Assembly: GCA_005879535.1 (NCBI GenBank)
Contig: VBKI01000041.1
Coordinates: forward strand, 1-37,622
Reading direction: 5' to 3'
Source: Deltaproteobacteria bacterium
Lineage (GTDB): Bacteria > Myxococcota > Myxococcia > Myxococcales > 40CM-4-68-19
DNA: 37,622 nucleotides
The position numbers were made by a program, and so were the translations under genes. The notes under the pieces were generated by a model. That model saw only the letters and a program-made list of their open reading frames with translations. It searched no databases and had not been told where the DNA came from. Shown here one piece after another: positions 26,943 through 34,347 of this stretch (positions within the stretch are counted from its first letter, which is position 1; every line of letters begins with the position of its first letter).

Positions 26943-28916
26943 ATGCACAGCCTTCTTCTCGCCGCCGCGCTCGCCCTCGTCGCCCCGCTCGACGAGAGCA
27001 CACCTGCGCTCCAGGCTCGCGTGCTTTCGGGGCTGGATCGGCCGCAGGCGGTCGCCGACCTCTACCGCCTCTACGAGCGGCGCGAGGAAAGGGGAGATCA
27101 GAGCGCGCTCCTGCTGACGCTGGAAAAAGCGTCCACATCGCCCAAGGCGCGCGCAGACGTGCGCGCGCTCGCCGCGGAGATGCTGGGCGAGCTGGCGATC
27201 GCACGGGGACAGCTTCCCCGCGCGACCGCGCTGTTCGACGGTGTCGCGCCAATCCGGACCTGGAGCGTCATCGGTCCGTTCGAGAACGACGGGCGCAGCG
27301 GCCTGACGACGGCATACCCGCCGGAGAAGGAAGGCTTCGACCCGAAGGCGGTCTACCGGGGCAAGGAGCACGACGTGGCCTGGCGCGCCCTCGCCAGGGG
27401 TCACGCTCCTTACGGATTCGTCGACCTCTCCGCCGCCGTGTACCCGCGGTCCGACGTGGCCGTGTATGCCGCGACCGTGCTTCGCTCGGCGCAGGCGCAG
27501 GGGGTGCTCTTCCACCTCGGCGCTAGCGGCGCGACGCGTGTCTGGCTCAACGGCAAGCTCGTCCACGAGGACGCGGCCGTTCACCCCTCGCGCTTCGATC
27601 AGAAGACGTTCTCCGCCGAGCTGAACGCCGGAGACAACTTCCTTCTGGTGAAAGTCGCGCACAACCACGGGCGTCTCGGCTTCTCGCTGCGGGTGGCGGA
27701 TGGGAAGGACGCGCCCCTCGTCTCCCTGGCGCGCGACGCCCGGTCGCCGGAGTCGAAAGCGATCGCTTTCGCCGCGGCGTCCGAAGCCGGGCGGAAGCGT
27801 GCAACGCCCGCGAACAAGCCCGCGGACGCGTTCGACGAGCTGCGCAAGGCCGCGGCCCTGCATCCACGCGACGCCCGTGCGCAGGAGGACCTCGCCATCG
27901 CCCTCCAGTGGCGCCAGCCGACCGACGAAACGGAGCGCATGCCGCTGCGTGCGATGGAGCGCGTCATGGACGTCGCGTCCACGGACCCGGAAGCGGCGCT
28001 TCGATTCGCCCGCCTCGAGGATCGCGACGCCAACAAGCGCCGCGCGGCGCTGGAGACGGCGTTGGCAGCCCACCCGGACAACGCCGCGCTTCTCGACGCA
28101 CTCGCCAATTACCGGCTCGATCGCGGCGAAGGCTGGGCGGCGCTGGAGCTGGCGCGCAAGGCGCGCGCGTCCGCTCCGCAGTCGATCGATCCCATGCTGA
28201 CCGAAGCTCGGGCGCTCGACGGCGTCGGCCTCTCCGCGCGCGCATCGCTGCTTCGCATCGAGACGGCGAAGGTACGGCCCGATCTGGCTCGCGCCCGTCG
28301 CGCCGCTGCCGGAGCGTACCGGCGGCTCGGCCGCAGCGAAGACGCCGCCACGGAGCTGAAGCAGGCGCTGGCACTGCGATTCGACGACGCGGAAGCGCGC
28401 GGAGACCTGGTCTCGCTGGCGCTCGACCGCGGCGAGCTGAACGATGCACTGAAGCTCCTGGGCGAGACGCTCGCCATCGAACCCGCCACGCTGTATCCGC
28501 GCCTGCGCGCTGCCGAGCTGCTCTCCGAGAACGGGCGCGCAAACGAGGCGAGCAAGGCGTATGCGCAGGCGATCACGCTCGCGCCGGACGATCCCGAGCC
28601 GCACGAGCAGCTCGGCCGCCACCGCCTGCGGCTGAAGGACGACTCGGGCGCGCTGGCCGCGTTCACCCGCGCGCTTTCGCTGCGGCCCCAGAACCCGGCG
28701 CTGCGCGAGCTGGTCCGGTCCGTGCGTCCCGAGGAGCAGTACGCGGCGGCCTACTTGTACGACGCGAAGGAGCTGGCGAAGCTGAAGCCGCTCGCAGGCG
28801 AGGACGTGGAAGTGCTGGCGGACCTCTCGGTGGTGAAGGTGTTCGCGAACGGGCTCTCCTCGCGCACGCGCCAGCTCATCCTGCGGGGCAGTACTCGCCT
28901 GATCGGCAGGTGGTGA
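26943..28916 (+). CDS. TPR/DUF3857 protein, N-terminal part of a broken transglutaminase-like gene
   Basis: The 657-residue open frame starts with a signal peptide (MHSLLLAAALALVAP) preceded by GGGAG. Residues about 100-260 form a jelly-roll, carbohydrate-binding-like domain (WSVIGPFEND, TRVWLNGKLVHED, NFLLVKVAHNHG). A long TPR array follows (about 290-590; LALRFDDAEARGDLVSLAL, LAPDDPEPHEQLGRHRL). It then enters a DUF3857 domain (VEVLADLSVVKVFANGLSSRTRQLILR) and after about ten out-of-frame residues stops at 28914-28916. The missing remainder is in the next frame, so the two entries are one disrupted gene. It is probably periplasmic or surface-exposed. Confidence 0.75.
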   Translation: MHSLLLAAALALVAPLDESTPALQARVLSGLDRPQAVADLYRLYERREERGDQSALLLTLEKASTSPKARADVRALAAEMLGELAIARGQLPRATALFDGVAPIRTWSVIGPFENDGRSGLTTAYPPEKEGFDPKAVYRGKEHDVAWRALARGHAPYGFVDLSAAVYPRSDVAVYAATVLRSAQAQGVLFHLGASGATRVWLNGKLVHEDAAVHPSRFDQKTFSAELNAGDNFLLVKVAHNHGRLGFSLRVADGKDAPLVSLARDARSPESKAIAFAAASEAGRKRATPANKPADAFDELRKAAALHPRDARAQEDLAIALQWRQPTDETERMPLRAMERVMDVASTDPEAALRFARLEDRDANKRRAALETALAAHPDNAALLDALANYRLDRGEGWAALELARKARASAPQSIDPMLTEARALDGVGLSARASLLRIETAKVRPDLARARRAAAGAYRRLGRSEDAATELKQALALRFDDAEARGDLVSLALDRGELNDALKLLGETLAIEPATLYPRLRAAELLSENGRANEASKAYAQAITLAPDDPEPHEQLGRHRLRLKDDSGALAAFTRALSLRPQNPALRELVRSVRPEEQYAAAYLYDAKELAKLKPLAGEDVEVLADLSVVKVFANGLSSRTRQLILRGSTRLIGRW

Positions 28917-30559
28917 AGGTCGAGCGCGCGCGCATCTATCGCAAGGACGGCAGCGTCCTGGAGAGCAAGTCGGAAGGGGAGCGCAATCTCTCCGAGCCCT
29001 GGTACGGGCTCTACTACGATCTCCGGGCCCGCGTGGTCGGGTTCTCCCAGCTCGAGCCGGGTGACGTGCTGGAGCTGATCACGCGCACCGACGATTCCGG
29101 CTCGAACTTCTTCGCCGACTACTTCGGCGATTTCTCCTATCTGCAGTCGACGCAGACGCGCCGCGTCTCGGATTACGTCCTGCTCGGTCCGCCGGGGCGC
29201 ACCTTCTACGCAAGCGCGACGCCGCTGAAGGGCCTGGTCCACGGCGAGGGAAGGTCGGCGGATGGCGGCAGCTGGCGTCGATGGACGGCGCGGGACGTGC
29301 CCAAGCTCGTTCCCGAGCCGTCGATGCCTGGATACAGCGAGATGCTCGCGTACGTTCACGTCTCCACCTACAAGACCTGGGAGGACGTGGGCCGCTTCTA
29401 CTGGGGCCTGGTCAAGGACCAGCTGCGCGTCACCGACGACGTTCGCGCAGCGGCGCAGGAAGCGGTGAAGGGAATTCCGGACGGCGACGAAGCGGCGCGC
29501 ATCCGCGCCGTATACGACTTCGTCGTCTCGCGTACCCGGTACGTCGGCCTCGAGTTCGGAATCAATTCCTTCAAGCCCTACCCGGTGGAGACGATCCTCG
29601 CCCGCCGCTTCGGCGACTGCAAGGACAAGGCCTCGCTGATGCACGCGATGCTCGAGTCGCTGGGCATCGACTCGCGGCTGACATTGCTGCGGATGAAGCG
29701 TCTCGGCGGCATCGACGAGGCGCCCGCGTCCCTGGCGGTGTTCAATCACGCCATCCTCTACGTCCCCAGGCACCACCTGTTCCTCGACGGAACGGCTGAG
29801 TTCCACGGGTCCGGCGAGTTGCCGGGCGACGACCGCGGGGCGGAGGTGCTGGTGGTGGAGCCCGAGGGCGGGTCGAAATTCTTCCGCACCCCTGACGCGA
29901 CCCCCGCGGACAATTTCGACGAGACGCGGATCTCGGCCCACCTCCGTCCCGACGGAAGCGCAGCGGTCGAGGTCAAGGCGAGCGCCCGCGGCGCCTGGAC
30001 GGCGGAGCTGCGGCGCGTGTTCGAGCCCGCCGACGAGCGCCAGGCGCGGGCGCAGGAACAGCTCGCGCGCGCCGCGTTCCCGAACGTCAAGGTGACGGCG
30101 GTGTCCGTATCCGATCCCCACGACATCGAAAAGCCGTTCGAGACCCAGATCACAGCAACCGCCACGGGCTTTGCCTATCCGAAGGGCGACGGCCTGCAGT
30201 TCGGGCCCTTCGGACACCGCCAGAGCTTCGTCGAGACCTACGCACAGCTCTCGAAGCGGTTGCTTCCCCAGCGCCTCCCGCTGGCGCAGCGCACGGTGGT
30301 CGAGTCCGAGGTCGAGCTGCCCGCGGGATGGACGGCGACGATGCCGGAAGGCGCGCGGGAGACTGGGCCGCAAGGCTCGTACGAGATCGCCTTCACCCGC
30401 GAGCAGGGAAGGGTCGTCGCGCGCCTGACGCTGACGTTGAACGGCGGCGTCCTGCAGCCGGCGGACTATGCGCGGTTCCGCGCGTTCCTCGGGCGGCTCG
30501 ACGATGCGCTGCAGCGGCGCGTGGAGGCGACGCCGCCGGCGCAGACGGCTGCGCGTTGA
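28913..30559 (+). CDS. DUF3857/transglutaminase-like protein, C-terminal part of the broken gene
   Basis: The frame carries the DUF3857 end (RARIYRKDGSVLESKSEG, FSQLEPGDVLELI) and then a transglutaminase-like domain with an intact triad: Cys in RRFGDCKDKASL (bases 29618-29620), His in VFNHAILYV (29747-29749) and Asp in LFLDGTAEF (29786-29788). A C-terminal DUF of about 220 residues completes it. The first in-frame start near the break is GTG 28913, which overlaps the upstream stop as GTGA, so separate translation is possible, although it would split DUF3857. QYSPDRQVV just before this start is clearly also gene sequence, supporting a deletion-type frameshift. The stop overlaps the next ATG (TGATG). 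Confidence 0.75.
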   Translation: MKVERARIYRKDGSVLESKSEGERNLSEPWYGLYYDLRARVVGFSQLEPGDVLELITRTDDSGSNFFADYFGDFSYLQSTQTRRVSDYVLLGPPGRTFYASATPLKGLVHGEGRSADGGSWRRWTARDVPKLVPEPSMPGYSEMLAYVHVSTYKTWEDVGRFYWGLVKDQLRVTDDVRAAAQEAVKGIPDGDEAARIRAVYDFVVSRTRYVGLEFGINSFKPYPVETILARRFGDCKDKASLMHAMLESLGIDSRLTLLRMKRLGGIDEAPASLAVFNHAILYVPRHHLFLDGTAEFHGSGELPGDDRGAEVLVVEPEGGSKFFRTPDATPADNFDETRISAHLRPDGSAAVEVKASARGAWTAELRRVFEPADERQARAQEQLARAAFPNVKVTAVSVSDPHDIEKPFETQITATATGFAYPKGDGLQFGPFGHRQSFVETYAQLSKRLLPQRLPLAQRTVVESEVELPAGWTATMPEGARETGPQGSYEIAFTREQGRVVARLTLTLNGGVLQPADYARFRAFLGRLDDALQRRVEATPPAQTAAR

Positions 30560-33500
30560 TGCGAACGGAAGTCTTCGCGGTCCTGCTTGTCGCGGGCTGC
30601 GCCTCGGGCGCCCGTCGCGCCGAGCCTCCTCGCTGGAATCCGGACGATGCGCGGCGCAGGCTCGAGCAGGCGGAGACCGCGGCGCAGAAGGACCCGTCCC
30701 AGCTCGCCCGCGCAGGATGGCTGCGTTACTTGACAGCCTCGGACGCCAGCGGTGCGCTCCGGGAGCTGGAGCCGGCGTCACGAACGGGAACCCCGGCCCA
30801 GCGCGCGCTCGCCCTGGCGGGACTTGGAGAGATTGCGGAAGACCGCATCGACTCGCTGACCGCCACGCGATCGTTCGTCGCCGCGCTGCAGGCCGCTCCG
30901 ACCGATCCCGTTGCCGAGCTCGCCGCAGTGCGCCTCCTCGATCTGGAGGGCGACTCGCCTCAGGTCGACAACCTCATCTCTGAGGCGGCGCGCGCGCTGA
31001 AAGCGCCCGTTGCCCCGCGGGCGGCGCGGCTCGTCAGGGAGGCCGCGGCTCGGATCGCCGCGAGGCGAGCCGCACTTGCGGCCGGCCCCGCGATCGAGGT
31101 GGCTGCCTGGCGGGCCGTGGGAACCGTGCAGCGATGGCGGGTCGGAGGTCCGTTCGCCGCGCTCCGCCTGTTCGATCTGCGCCAGACGCTCGCGCTCGAT
31201 GGGCGCGTCGCTGCCACAGTCGCGATGAATGATCGAGCGCTCGAGTTTCCGGACGGCGACGCAGGTCTCGACTTCGAGCCGGCCGAGGGTGACGTCTTCT
31301 ATGCGGCGAGCGAGATCGCTCTGGAGCGCGGAGGAGAGTACCTGCTCTGGGTGGAAGGCGCCGCGGCGCTGGAGGCCCGGCTCGACGGCGCCGTGGTGAT
31401 CGCCCGGGTTCCCTATCCGATGGAGAGCCCACGCGCGCAGACGGCGGCCGTGCGCCTCGCGCCGGGCAGCCATCACCTGCTGGTCCGCTGGAGCCGCGCC
31501 GAAGGGAACCGGTTCCGCATCACGCTGGCGCGCGCAGACGGCGACGTCTCCGACCTGACCAGCACCGCGCCGGCCGCCTTGTCGGGAGCGCGCGCCGCCG
31601 CGACCTGCGAGCTCGGCCAGGCGTGCGTCGCGGCGTCGGCATGGAAGGATCGCGCGGATCTGCGCGCCGCCGCCGCTGCGATGCTGGAAGAGGATCCCTT
31701 CGACGCGCTCGCGGCGTGGCTCCTGGCGCGGGCCGAGATGGGAGACGATCGCGCTGCGTCCCGCGCCGCCGTGGACCGCGCCGTGACGCTCTCGGCAAAC
31801 GGCGCGCCCGCGCTCGCACTGCGGGCCCAGCAGCTCCTGCACGACCCGGAGGTGCCGGATCGGATCGCCCGGGCGCGTGCCTTGGCTGACCTCGGCGAGG
31901 CGGCGCGCAAGGATCCGCTGCTGGTCCGCGCACGGCTCACCGCGGCGGCGCTGGAGCGCGACTCCGAGCGGTACGACGATGCCGCGCAGGACCTGGACCG
32001 GGCGGAAGCCATCCTGCGCGAACAGAAGGCGCCGCCGTCCGCCCGGATGCTGGTTGCGCGTGCGCGGCTCCTCGACGCGCGAGGAAACTCGGCGGGCGCG
32101 AGGGCGCGCGCGGAGGAAGCGCTGCGGGCGGTTCCGGGGCGCTGCGACACGCTGCAACTCTTGCTCGACCTGTCGCGGCGCGGAGGATCGCTCTCCGACC
32201 AGGGAAAGTACGGCGAAGCGCTCGTCGGATGCGCCGACGGAGAGTCGGCGGCGGCGCAGGTGGCACGCACCCGCGGCGACCTCGCGCGGGCCGAGCAATT
32301 GCTGAGGCTCGCCGCGGCTCAGCGACCGGCGCAGCCGGGGCGCCTGGAACAGCTCGCGGAGATACAGTCGGCACGCAAGGAGCTCGCTGCCGCCGTCGCT
32401 TCGATTCGGGGCGCTGCCGCTTTGGCGCCGCGGAGCGCCGAGCCGCTGCGACGCCTCGCGAATGCGCTCGAGCTCCTCGGCGAGGCGAAAGCCGCTGCCC
32501 AGGCGCGGAACGCTGCGCTCCGCCTCGCTCCAGGGGATCTGCAGGTGCGCCAGCAGATCGCGCTCGACGAAGGCCGGCGTCTCCTCTCCTGGAGCGACCG
32601 CGACGGCGCGGCGCTGGTGAAGGCCTCGAAGGAAGCGCCTCCGGGGGCGAGCGCCGTGCGGCTGCTCGATTTCGGCGCTGTGCAGATGTTTCCAGACGGC
32701 GGCGGAGTCGAGCGCGTCCACACCGTGGCGCGGGTCTTCGACAAGAAGGGGATCACGAAGTTTGGCGAGGCGCAGCTTCCCGCCGATGCCCAGGTGCTCC
32801 GGCTGCGCACGTTGAAGGCCGACGGGCGCGTGCTCGAGCCGGAATCGATTCCCGAGAAGGAAGGCATCAGTCTGCCCGGGCTCGAGCCCGGCGACGCGGT
32901 CGAGACCGACTACCTGCGCGGAATCGCGCCGCGGGGTCCGGAGATGCCCGGATACTCGCTCGGCGCCTTTTTCTTTCGCGACGACGAGACGCCGATGGGC
33001 GAGTCGACGTACGAGACCCGCACGCCCGCGCCGCCGGAGATCGACGCGCACAACGTGCAGCTTCCGCAGGGTGCGCTGACCCGCGATGCCGACGGTTTCC
33101 GTTTCCGCTACTCCGCGCGCGACGTAAAGCCGCTCCAGCCCGAGCCGCATCAGGTCCCGGAGAGCGAGGTGATGCCCTGGGTGCAATTGGGAACCGGCTC
33201 CGGGCAGAAGGAGCTGATGCGCTCGTTGGCGGACTGGGCGCTGTTGCGGACCCGTTCCGGCAGCGCCACGGCAGAGCTGGCGAAGCGGTCGACGGGCGCG
33301 GGCGTCGAGGATACGGCGCGAAAGATCTACGCGTCGGTCGCGCAGGCGGTGAGAGGACGGTCGACGGGCTCCGAGTTCCAGACGAGCGCCGCGCACATTC
33401 TCGCTCAAGGCCGCGGGAACCGGCTCGTCGTGCTGAAGGCGGCGCTCGCAGCGGCCCGGATTCCCTCGCACATCGTCTTCGCGCGCACGTTTCTTTCCGA

Positions 33501-34347
33501 TCCGTCTCCCTACCGGTTTCCCCGTGGCGACGTCTTCGGTTACGCGGTGCTACGCATCGATCTGCCCGGTGGATCGGCTTGGATCGACCCCTCGTACCGG
33601 TTGGCTCCCTTCAACCAGCTTCCGGCGTTCCTGCGCGGACAGGACGGGTGGGTGGTGCCGGAGCCGGGCGAGGAAGCGGCCTATCTCCAGCTGCCGCAGA
33701 CGCTGCCGGACCAGCGCGACGGCCGGAGCCTGCAGCTGAGCCTGTCGCTCGACGCCGAGGGCCTCGCGAGCGGGACCGGCCGCGACGAGCATCATGGCTT
33801 CGAGGCCGCATCGCTCAAGGACGCGCTGGAGCGTCTCGACGGCGAGCAGCGCAAGCAGGCCGTCGAGTCGATGCTCGGACGTGGGCTGCGCGGCGTGACG
33901 CTGGAATCGCTGGCCATCGAGCGCGAGGCGGAAATCGGCGGGACGGCGACGCTGCTCTACGGGGTGCGCGTGCAGCTTGCCCGGCGAGATGGCGCGCAGC
34001 TCTTCGTGCCCGCAGCGCTGGTGCCGTCGCGCCTGGCGCGCCGGTGGCTACAGACGGCAGAGCGGCAGGTGACGCTCCTGATCGATTCGCCGGAGATCGT
34101 CACGCAGCGCGCGGCCATCGCGCTGCCGCCGTCGTGGTCCCCGCGAGGTTTGCCGAAGCCGCTGTTCATCGCGACGCCGTTCGGCGCGTACTCGTGGAGC
34201 GCGCGAGCCGAGGCTGGAAAGCTGGTGATCGAGGAAGCGCTCTCGATTCCGCAGCAAAGGGTGAAGCCGGACCGCTACGCGGCCTTTGCGGCGTTCGCGC
34301 GCGACGTCGATCAGGCGCAGTCGCAGGAGCTGGTGGTGGCGCCTTAA
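30559..34347 (+). CDS. Large lipoprotein with TPRs, DUF3857 and a catalytically dead transglutaminase-like domain
   Basis: The 1262-residue product begins with a lipoprotein signal (lipobox LVAGC, Cys14). It has the same plan as the preceding broken gene: helical repeats, a jelly-roll-like domain (WRVGGPFAALRLFDL, YLLWVEGAAALEARLDGAVV), long TPRs, DUF3857 (VRLLDFGAVQMFPDGG, SLPGLEPGDAVETDYLRG) and a transglutaminase-like domain. In that domain the expected catalytic Cys aligns with Arg952 (QGRGNRLVVLKAAL) and the His with Tyr995 (FGYAVLRID); only the Asp remains (Asp1010, AWIDPSYR). It is therefore a paralogue that has lost enzyme activity and may serve as scaffold or partner. Its stop overlaps the hemW stop on the other strand. 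Confidence 0.85.
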   Translation: MRTEVFAVLLVAGCASGARRAEPPRWNPDDARRRLEQAETAAQKDPSQLARAGWLRYLTASDASGALRELEPASRTGTPAQRALALAGLGEIAEDRIDSLTATRSFVAALQAAPTDPVAELAAVRLLDLEGDSPQVDNLISEAARALKAPVAPRAARLVREAAARIAARRAALAAGPAIEVAAWRAVGTVQRWRVGGPFAALRLFDLRQTLALDGRVAATVAMNDRALEFPDGDAGLDFEPAEGDVFYAASEIALERGGEYLLWVEGAAALEARLDGAVVIARVPYPMESPRAQTAAVRLAPGSHHLLVRWSRAEGNRFRITLARADGDVSDLTSTAPAALSGARAAATCELGQACVAASAWKDRADLRAAAAAMLEEDPFDALAAWLLARAEMGDDRAASRAAVDRAVTLSANGAPALALRAQQLLHDPEVPDRIARARALADLGEAARKDPLLVRARLTAAALERDSERYDDAAQDLDRAEAILREQKAPPSARMLVARARLLDARGNSAGARARAEEALRAVPGRCDTLQLLLDLSRRGGSLSDQGKYGEALVGCADGESAAAQVARTRGDLARAEQLLRLAAAQRPAQPGRLEQLAEIQSARKELAAAVASIRGAAALAPRSAEPLRRLANALELLGEAKAAAQARNAALRLAPGDLQVRQQIALDEGRRLLSWSDRDGAALVKASKEAPPGASAVRLLDFGAVQMFPDGGGVERVHTVARVFDKKGITKFGEAQLPADAQVLRLRTLKADGRVLEPESIPEKEGISLPGLEPGDAVETDYLRGIAPRGPEMPGYSLGAFFFRDDETPMGESTYETRTPAPPEIDAHNVQLPQGALTRDADGFRFRYSARDVKPLQPEPHQVPESEVMPWVQLGTGSGQKELMRSLADWALLRTRSGSATAELAKRSTGAGVEDTARKIYASVAQAVRGRSTGSEFQTSAAHILAQGRGNRLVVLKAALAAARIPSHIVFARTFLSDPSPYRFPRGDVFGYAVLRIDLPGGSAWIDPSYRLAPFNQLPAFLRGQDGWVVPEPGEEAAYLQLPQTLPDQRDGRSLQLSLSLDAEGLASGTGRDEHHGFEAASLKDALERLDGEQRKQAVESMLGRGLRGVTLESLAIEREAEIGGTATLLYGVRVQLARRDGAQLFVPAALVPSRLARRWLQTAERQVTLLIDSPEIVTQRAAIALPPSWSPRGLPKPLFIATPFGAYSWSARAEAGKLVIEEALSIPQQRVKPDRYAAFAAFARDVDQAQSQELVVAP

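Follow-up and report, generated by a model that had tools for sequence, protein, structure and literature searches.

Tandem DUF3857-transglutaminase-like paralogues of Myxococcota: a putative envelope enzyme and its candidate pseudoenzyme partner

Results

The window analyzed here is the whole stretch of 37,622 nucleotides taken from contig VBKI01000041.1. We located two tandem + strand paralogues in it, gene 1 and gene 2, which encode exported proteins of common build: in both, a signal peptide, a β-sandwich, TPR repeats, DUF3857, a transglutaminase-like core and a DUF3858-like domain follow in this order. Gene 1 comes in two pieces. Its 5′ fragment (26943–28916, + strand, an ORF of 657 amino acids) contains a Sec signal peptide without a lipobox, a jelly-roll (residues ∼100–275), a TPR array and the first part of DUF3857, the domain layout being taken from a model of the L003 orthologue. 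The 3′ part (28889–30559, + strand) comprises DUF3857, the transglutaminase core with Cys (codon 29618–29620), His (29747–29749), and Asp (29786–29788), and the DUF3858-like domain. Gene 2 (30559–34347, + strand) encodes a lipoprotein of 1262 amino acids with a jelly-roll and TPR-like region, DUF3857, a core that lacks the Cys and the His, and a DUF3858-like domain. The two genes overlap in a TGATG (30557–30561, + strand) formed by the TGA of gene 1 (30557–30559) and the ATG of gene 2 (30559–30561), confirming the arrangement in the original prediction, and most relatives keep an overlap of 1–4 nt or a near-abutting start.

By crude ORF calls the pair lies among housekeeping genes (comF, phosphoglycerate mutase and rsfS/rlmH-like genes upstream, hemW downstream), among which we found no functional clue. 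This genome contains no close second copy of either gene: the gene 2 protein matches itself and one weak TPR hit only, and DUF3857 exceeds its cut-off genome-wide in gene 1 only.

Profile-profile comparison establishes homology between the C-terminal halves of the two proteins (hhalign probability 100, E 5e-59). Scored individually, DUF3857 (PF12969) reaches 56.2 bits in gene 1 and 28.9 bits in gene 2, both over the curated cut-off of 24.6. The DUF3858 (PF12970) scores are 23.7 and 14.8 bits, respectively, versus a curated cut-off of 27; a whole-length fold match to PDB ID 3KD4 supports the DUF3858-like assignment. Gene 1 also exceeds the curated cut-off of Transglut_core (PF01841). In the Pfam scan the window's gene 2 stays below this threshold, which is reached by only 2 of 25 homologues; despite this miss, profile-profile comparison and fold link gene 2 to the transglutaminase core. 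The C-terminal half of gene 2 (32626–34344, + strand) yields a confident model (pLDDT 92.8) of a complete DUF3857-transglutaminase-DUF3858 fold, which can be superposed on 3KD4 from end to end (Z is 19.5) and whose core aligns to the TG2 and TG3 structures. Foldseek additionally returned Ost1/ribophorin I (E 1e-8, but at a high r.m.s.d. of 17–20) and the N-terminal domain of M1 aminopeptidases as matches to the DUF3857-DUF3858 build of this model.

In this assembly, gene 1 lacks a continuous reading frame. The ORF at 26943–28916 stops before most of DUF3857, and the part with Cys, His, and Asp lies in another frame, which ends at 30559. Alignment with ten near relatives, all of which have the stretch, reveals that 43 nt are absent from the window at ∼28887 (deletion junction 28885–28890, + strand); the frame is broken relative to all relatives examined, and a single frame runs across the deletion point in all 80 relatives. 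We rejected programmed frameshifting, since no relative with sequence at this position shares the 43-nt deletion. As for a hairpin-driven deletion or a loss during sequencing, the relatives' counterpart of the missing stretch folds only slightly better than shuffled sequences (z is −0.6 to −1.8), which points neither way. Because the remainder of gene 1 evolves under ordinary constraint (dN/dS is 0.10 versus L003 and 0.09 between two relatives, with no relaxation visible), the break is either a very recent, real mutation or an assembly error. With gene 1 broken, two possibilities therefore arise: a two-gene system that does not function in this organism, or an error of this kind. That gene 1 is a true pseudogene in this organism, outlived by gene 2, is possible, if somewhat doubtful: its frame is indeed broken by the deletion, and a very recent event would leave the same dN/dS picture, whereas constraint is not visibly relaxed, the draft assembly consists of 118 contigs, and the missing stretch is GC-rich.

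The Cys-His-Asp triad of the papain-like transglutaminase core is present in the gene 1 residues of the window and in 80/80 relatives, drawn from Anaeromyxobacter, Myxococcaceae, Polyangia-type, and uncultured Myxococcota. The claim of an intact triad thus stands for the residues in the window and in every relative, but not for the gene frame, which is split in this assembly. Gene 2 lacks both Cys and His. In an ungapped alignment, the Cys position is occupied by Arg952 (Arg952 to Arg955, the Cys+3 residue, span 33412–33423, + strand) and the His position by Tyr995 (33541–33543, + strand), the replacements originally predicted, and Asp1010 (33586–33588, + strand) is kept at the Asp position. 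A gapped alignment that moves the lost Cys to Arg955 was discarded, Arg952 suiting the helix register better; the window has Arg and no Cys either way. Among ∼60 Myxococcota gene 2 sequences (partly overlapping sets), none has a Cys at the catalytic position, where R, E, Q or T is found instead, and none of the homologues keeps the triad. At the His position, aromatic or polar residues predominate, and the few sequences that have His there all lack the Cys; the Asp position is mostly kept, and Arg955 is invariant. With Cys and His absent, gene 2 is a member of the transglutaminase-like fold that falls outside the enzymes.

Gene 2 could instead be no pseudoenzyme but an enzyme whose active site has moved or is of another kind, given that papain-like enzymes can change the position of their catalytic residues (PMC10318531) and that Asp1010, Gly953, Arg955, and Arg1014 are strongly conserved in its core. 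We consider this very improbable: the transglutaminase core contains no conserved Cys, the invariant Cys529 and Cys558 are found in the TPR region, and the position of the lost His is variable. These two cysteines, which are invariant in 25 gene 2 homologues and lie outside the catalytic core, may form a conserved disulfide.

Nor does gene 2 behave as a functionless duplicate in decay. Its catalytic residues are gone and occasional in-frame stops occur in single assemblies (G004, G050), but full-length frames throughout the phylum, a dN/dS of 0.15–0.37, well under 1, invariant residues, and a confident fold contradict this reading, to which we attach next to no probability. Gene 2 is under purifying selection, and its fold is not decaying. 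The stops mentioned are single ones (TAG, TAA) in otherwise full-length genes (L006/L084 of G004, and G050:C16) from draft assemblies, as is the break in gene 1.

The gene 2 protein starts MRTEVFAVLLVAGC, a short lipoprotein signal in which the lipobox LVAGC can be read by eye at residues 10–14 (lipobox Cys codon 30598–30600, + strand). This signal peptide II with its lipobox Cys agrees with the earlier assignment of gene 2 as a lipoprotein, and the anchor is conserved in homologues. By a strict pattern, which misses the window's short signal, at least 22 of 32 adjacent gene 2 homologues and 9/9 from Myxococcaceae have a lipobox; the same pattern is found in 3/64 gene 1 sequences. Three Anaeromyxobacteraceae-type gene 2 sequences are without a lipobox.

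We found a match in 62 of the 77 Myxococcota genomes sampled. Direct adjacency, with gene 1 ahead of gene 2, is seen in 25 genomes from outside the Myxococcaceae, as counted from coordinates, and four more gave no adjacency call (G072, G075, G032, and G064; contig end or indeterminate). The 28 Myxococcaceae-type genomes (family f2) each have gene 2 as well as a gene-1-like protein, but never as neighbours; both share a contig in 18 of these genomes, and in 18/18 gene 1 precedes gene 2 on the same strand, at a distance of 29–73 kb. This looks like an ancestral pair that an insertion has pulled apart. Ten further named genomes that we looked at comprise nine of the Myxococcaceae type and one Anaeromyxobacter. 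The genes are thus adjacent nearly everywhere outside the Myxococcaceae, in which both genes are retained, and of the two findings that would have refuted the original prediction, rare adjacency and gene 2 homologues with the triad, neither was observed; a dead paralogue is kept beside the active one, and a chance origin of the pair is excluded because it is conserved across the phylum. In a phylogenetic tree, gene 1 and gene 2 form two clades with parallel branching (100/100). Each clade holds both main lineages, and the duplication is therefore older than their split. One Myxococcaceae-type genome has two adjacent long gene-1-like proteins (G092:C23:15918–21228) in addition to a distant gene 2, and a record named Comamonas sp. 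KCTC 72670 (L027), with a Myxococcus-like locus, is probably mislabelled or contaminated.

Several Myxococcota contain a second kind of tandem DUF3857 pair, of ∼650–700 amino acids and without TPRs (L153–L158, L161–L163, L174, L175, and L177). In 12/12 of these, the Cys is found in the first gene and is replaced by P, N or A in the second. Lipoprotein signals occur on many members of the short pairs. The same order, Cys-bearing and then Cys-less, is found in 3/3 pairs from Bacteroidota (C/H/D then P/C/D in Parabacteroides distasonis, C/H/D then E/D/A in Persicobacter sp. JZB09, and C/H/E then S/N/D in P. psychrovividus). The second gene of the Parabacteroides pair (L182:5629–9184, in which an active DUF3857 gene is followed after a 13-nt gap) encodes the protein of PDB ID 3KD4 (BDI_1141), filed as “putative protease,” so that the only structure solved for this combination of domains is that of a Cys-less partner. 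The L182 record is filed as a plasmid, and the pair adjoins a men operon. Active forms also occur singly, as ten long third copies in Myxococcota, and also in Paraburkholderia and in Aureibacter, and a Cys-less form without a detected partner is found in Rhodanobacter and in L178, indicating that not every member needs a partner.

In our larger tree, gene 2 groups beside gene 1 and apart from the short dead genes (95%). The AU test does not reject a single clade that unites all dead genes (p-AU is 0.33), and a smaller tree recovers such a clade with weak support (66/37). The jelly-roll and TPR arms, which gene 1 and gene 2 have in common and the short pairs lack, speak for a separate origin of the long dead gene; Cys-less partners may have evolved on two or more occasions.

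Discussion

We propose that gene 1 encodes an exported thiol enzyme and gene 2 its lipid-anchored pseudoenzyme partner in a heteromeric complex of the envelope, a reading that we hold to be, on balance, probable; physical contact, catalysis by gene 1, the place in the envelope, and the direction of control are its inferred parts. Gene 1 would be a protease, amidase or transamidase whose Cys-His-Asp transglutaminase-like core sits between the DUF3857 and DUF3858 β-domains, with the jelly-roll and TPRs as the arm that bears it. Its lipid-anchored paralogue would join it in the complex, and this dead subunit could anchor the enzyme to a membrane and control the gene 1 active site or present substrate to it. 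An envelope complex is suggested by the presence of the anchor on gene 2 only, the enzyme-like character of gene 1, and the strict retention of both. That the dead copy is a working partner is suggested by the recurrence of the pairing throughout Myxococcota and again in Bacteroidota. The same order in the short Myxococcota pairs and in Bacteroidota lends support to the functional enzyme/pseudoenzyme pair originally predicted. Co-transcription is not essential, as the separation of the genes in Myxococcaceae shows, and the tandem active-dead order could stem in part from descent and not from function.

Gene 2 might alternatively act by itself, as a non-catalytic envelope binding protein (a receptor or scaffold built from TPRs and jelly-roll) that arose as a duplicate, makes no contact with gene 1, and owes its adjacency to inheritance. 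Both genes are kept in Myxococcaceae at a distance of tens of kilobases, the catalytic site is fully rebuilt, and inactive transglutaminase relative protein 4.2 (EPB42) is among the fold matches, as would suit such a protein. The active-then-dead order, however, is also found in the TPR-less short pairs and in Bacteroidota, and gene 2 without gene 1 was not found in the sampled order. We consider an independent role of gene 2 rather unlikely and prefer the heteromeric complex.

More tentatively, DUF3857-transglutaminase proteins could widely be two-subunit enzymes, in which a thiol enzyme has an obligate dead paralogue and both are encoded in active-dead order in Myxococcota as well as Bacteroidota. 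The only structure solved, 3KD4, would then be that of a dead subunit, and the Cys-less partner would have arisen perhaps two or more times. Active/dead DUF3857 pairs in two phyla mean that experimenters should co-express both subunits, and 3KD4, filed as a putative protease, is re-labelled as a Cys-less partner. If our proposal is correct, the pair would add a case from the bacterial envelope in which a dead paralogue holds or controls its enzyme.

The statement that no function is described for the pair agrees with our search of the open-access literature, which yielded DUF3857 in a single passing reference, DUF3858 not at all, and a function for neither domain. In the open-access papers searched, we found neither a comparable pair of adjacent active and dead genes in bacteria nor any description of 3KD4 as a pseudoenzyme partner. 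Gene 1 shares the Cys, His, and Asp of the Transglut_core superfamily (PF01841; TgpA, animal transglutaminases, and Streptococcus pyogenes TglA), from which the window pair differs by its DUF3857/TPR/jelly-roll build. The best fold match is 3KD4 from P. distasonis (DUF3857 and DUF3858; Z is 31.2 for gene 1, compared with 19.5 for gene 2). It has the three-part C-terminal build of gene 1 and gene 2, has no Cys, and follows an active DUF3857 gene, but it is much shorter, is without TPRs or jelly-roll, and comes from another phylum. EPB42 serves as a membrane scaffold, and dead transglutaminase relatives used in this way are the nearest known analogues. Erythrocyte protein 4.2 is a catalytically inactive transglutaminase homologue (PMC10318531) and so shares a dead transglutaminase fold with gene 2, whereas it is eukaryotic, has no active partner encoded next door, and is a middling fold match to gene 2 (Z is 8.6).
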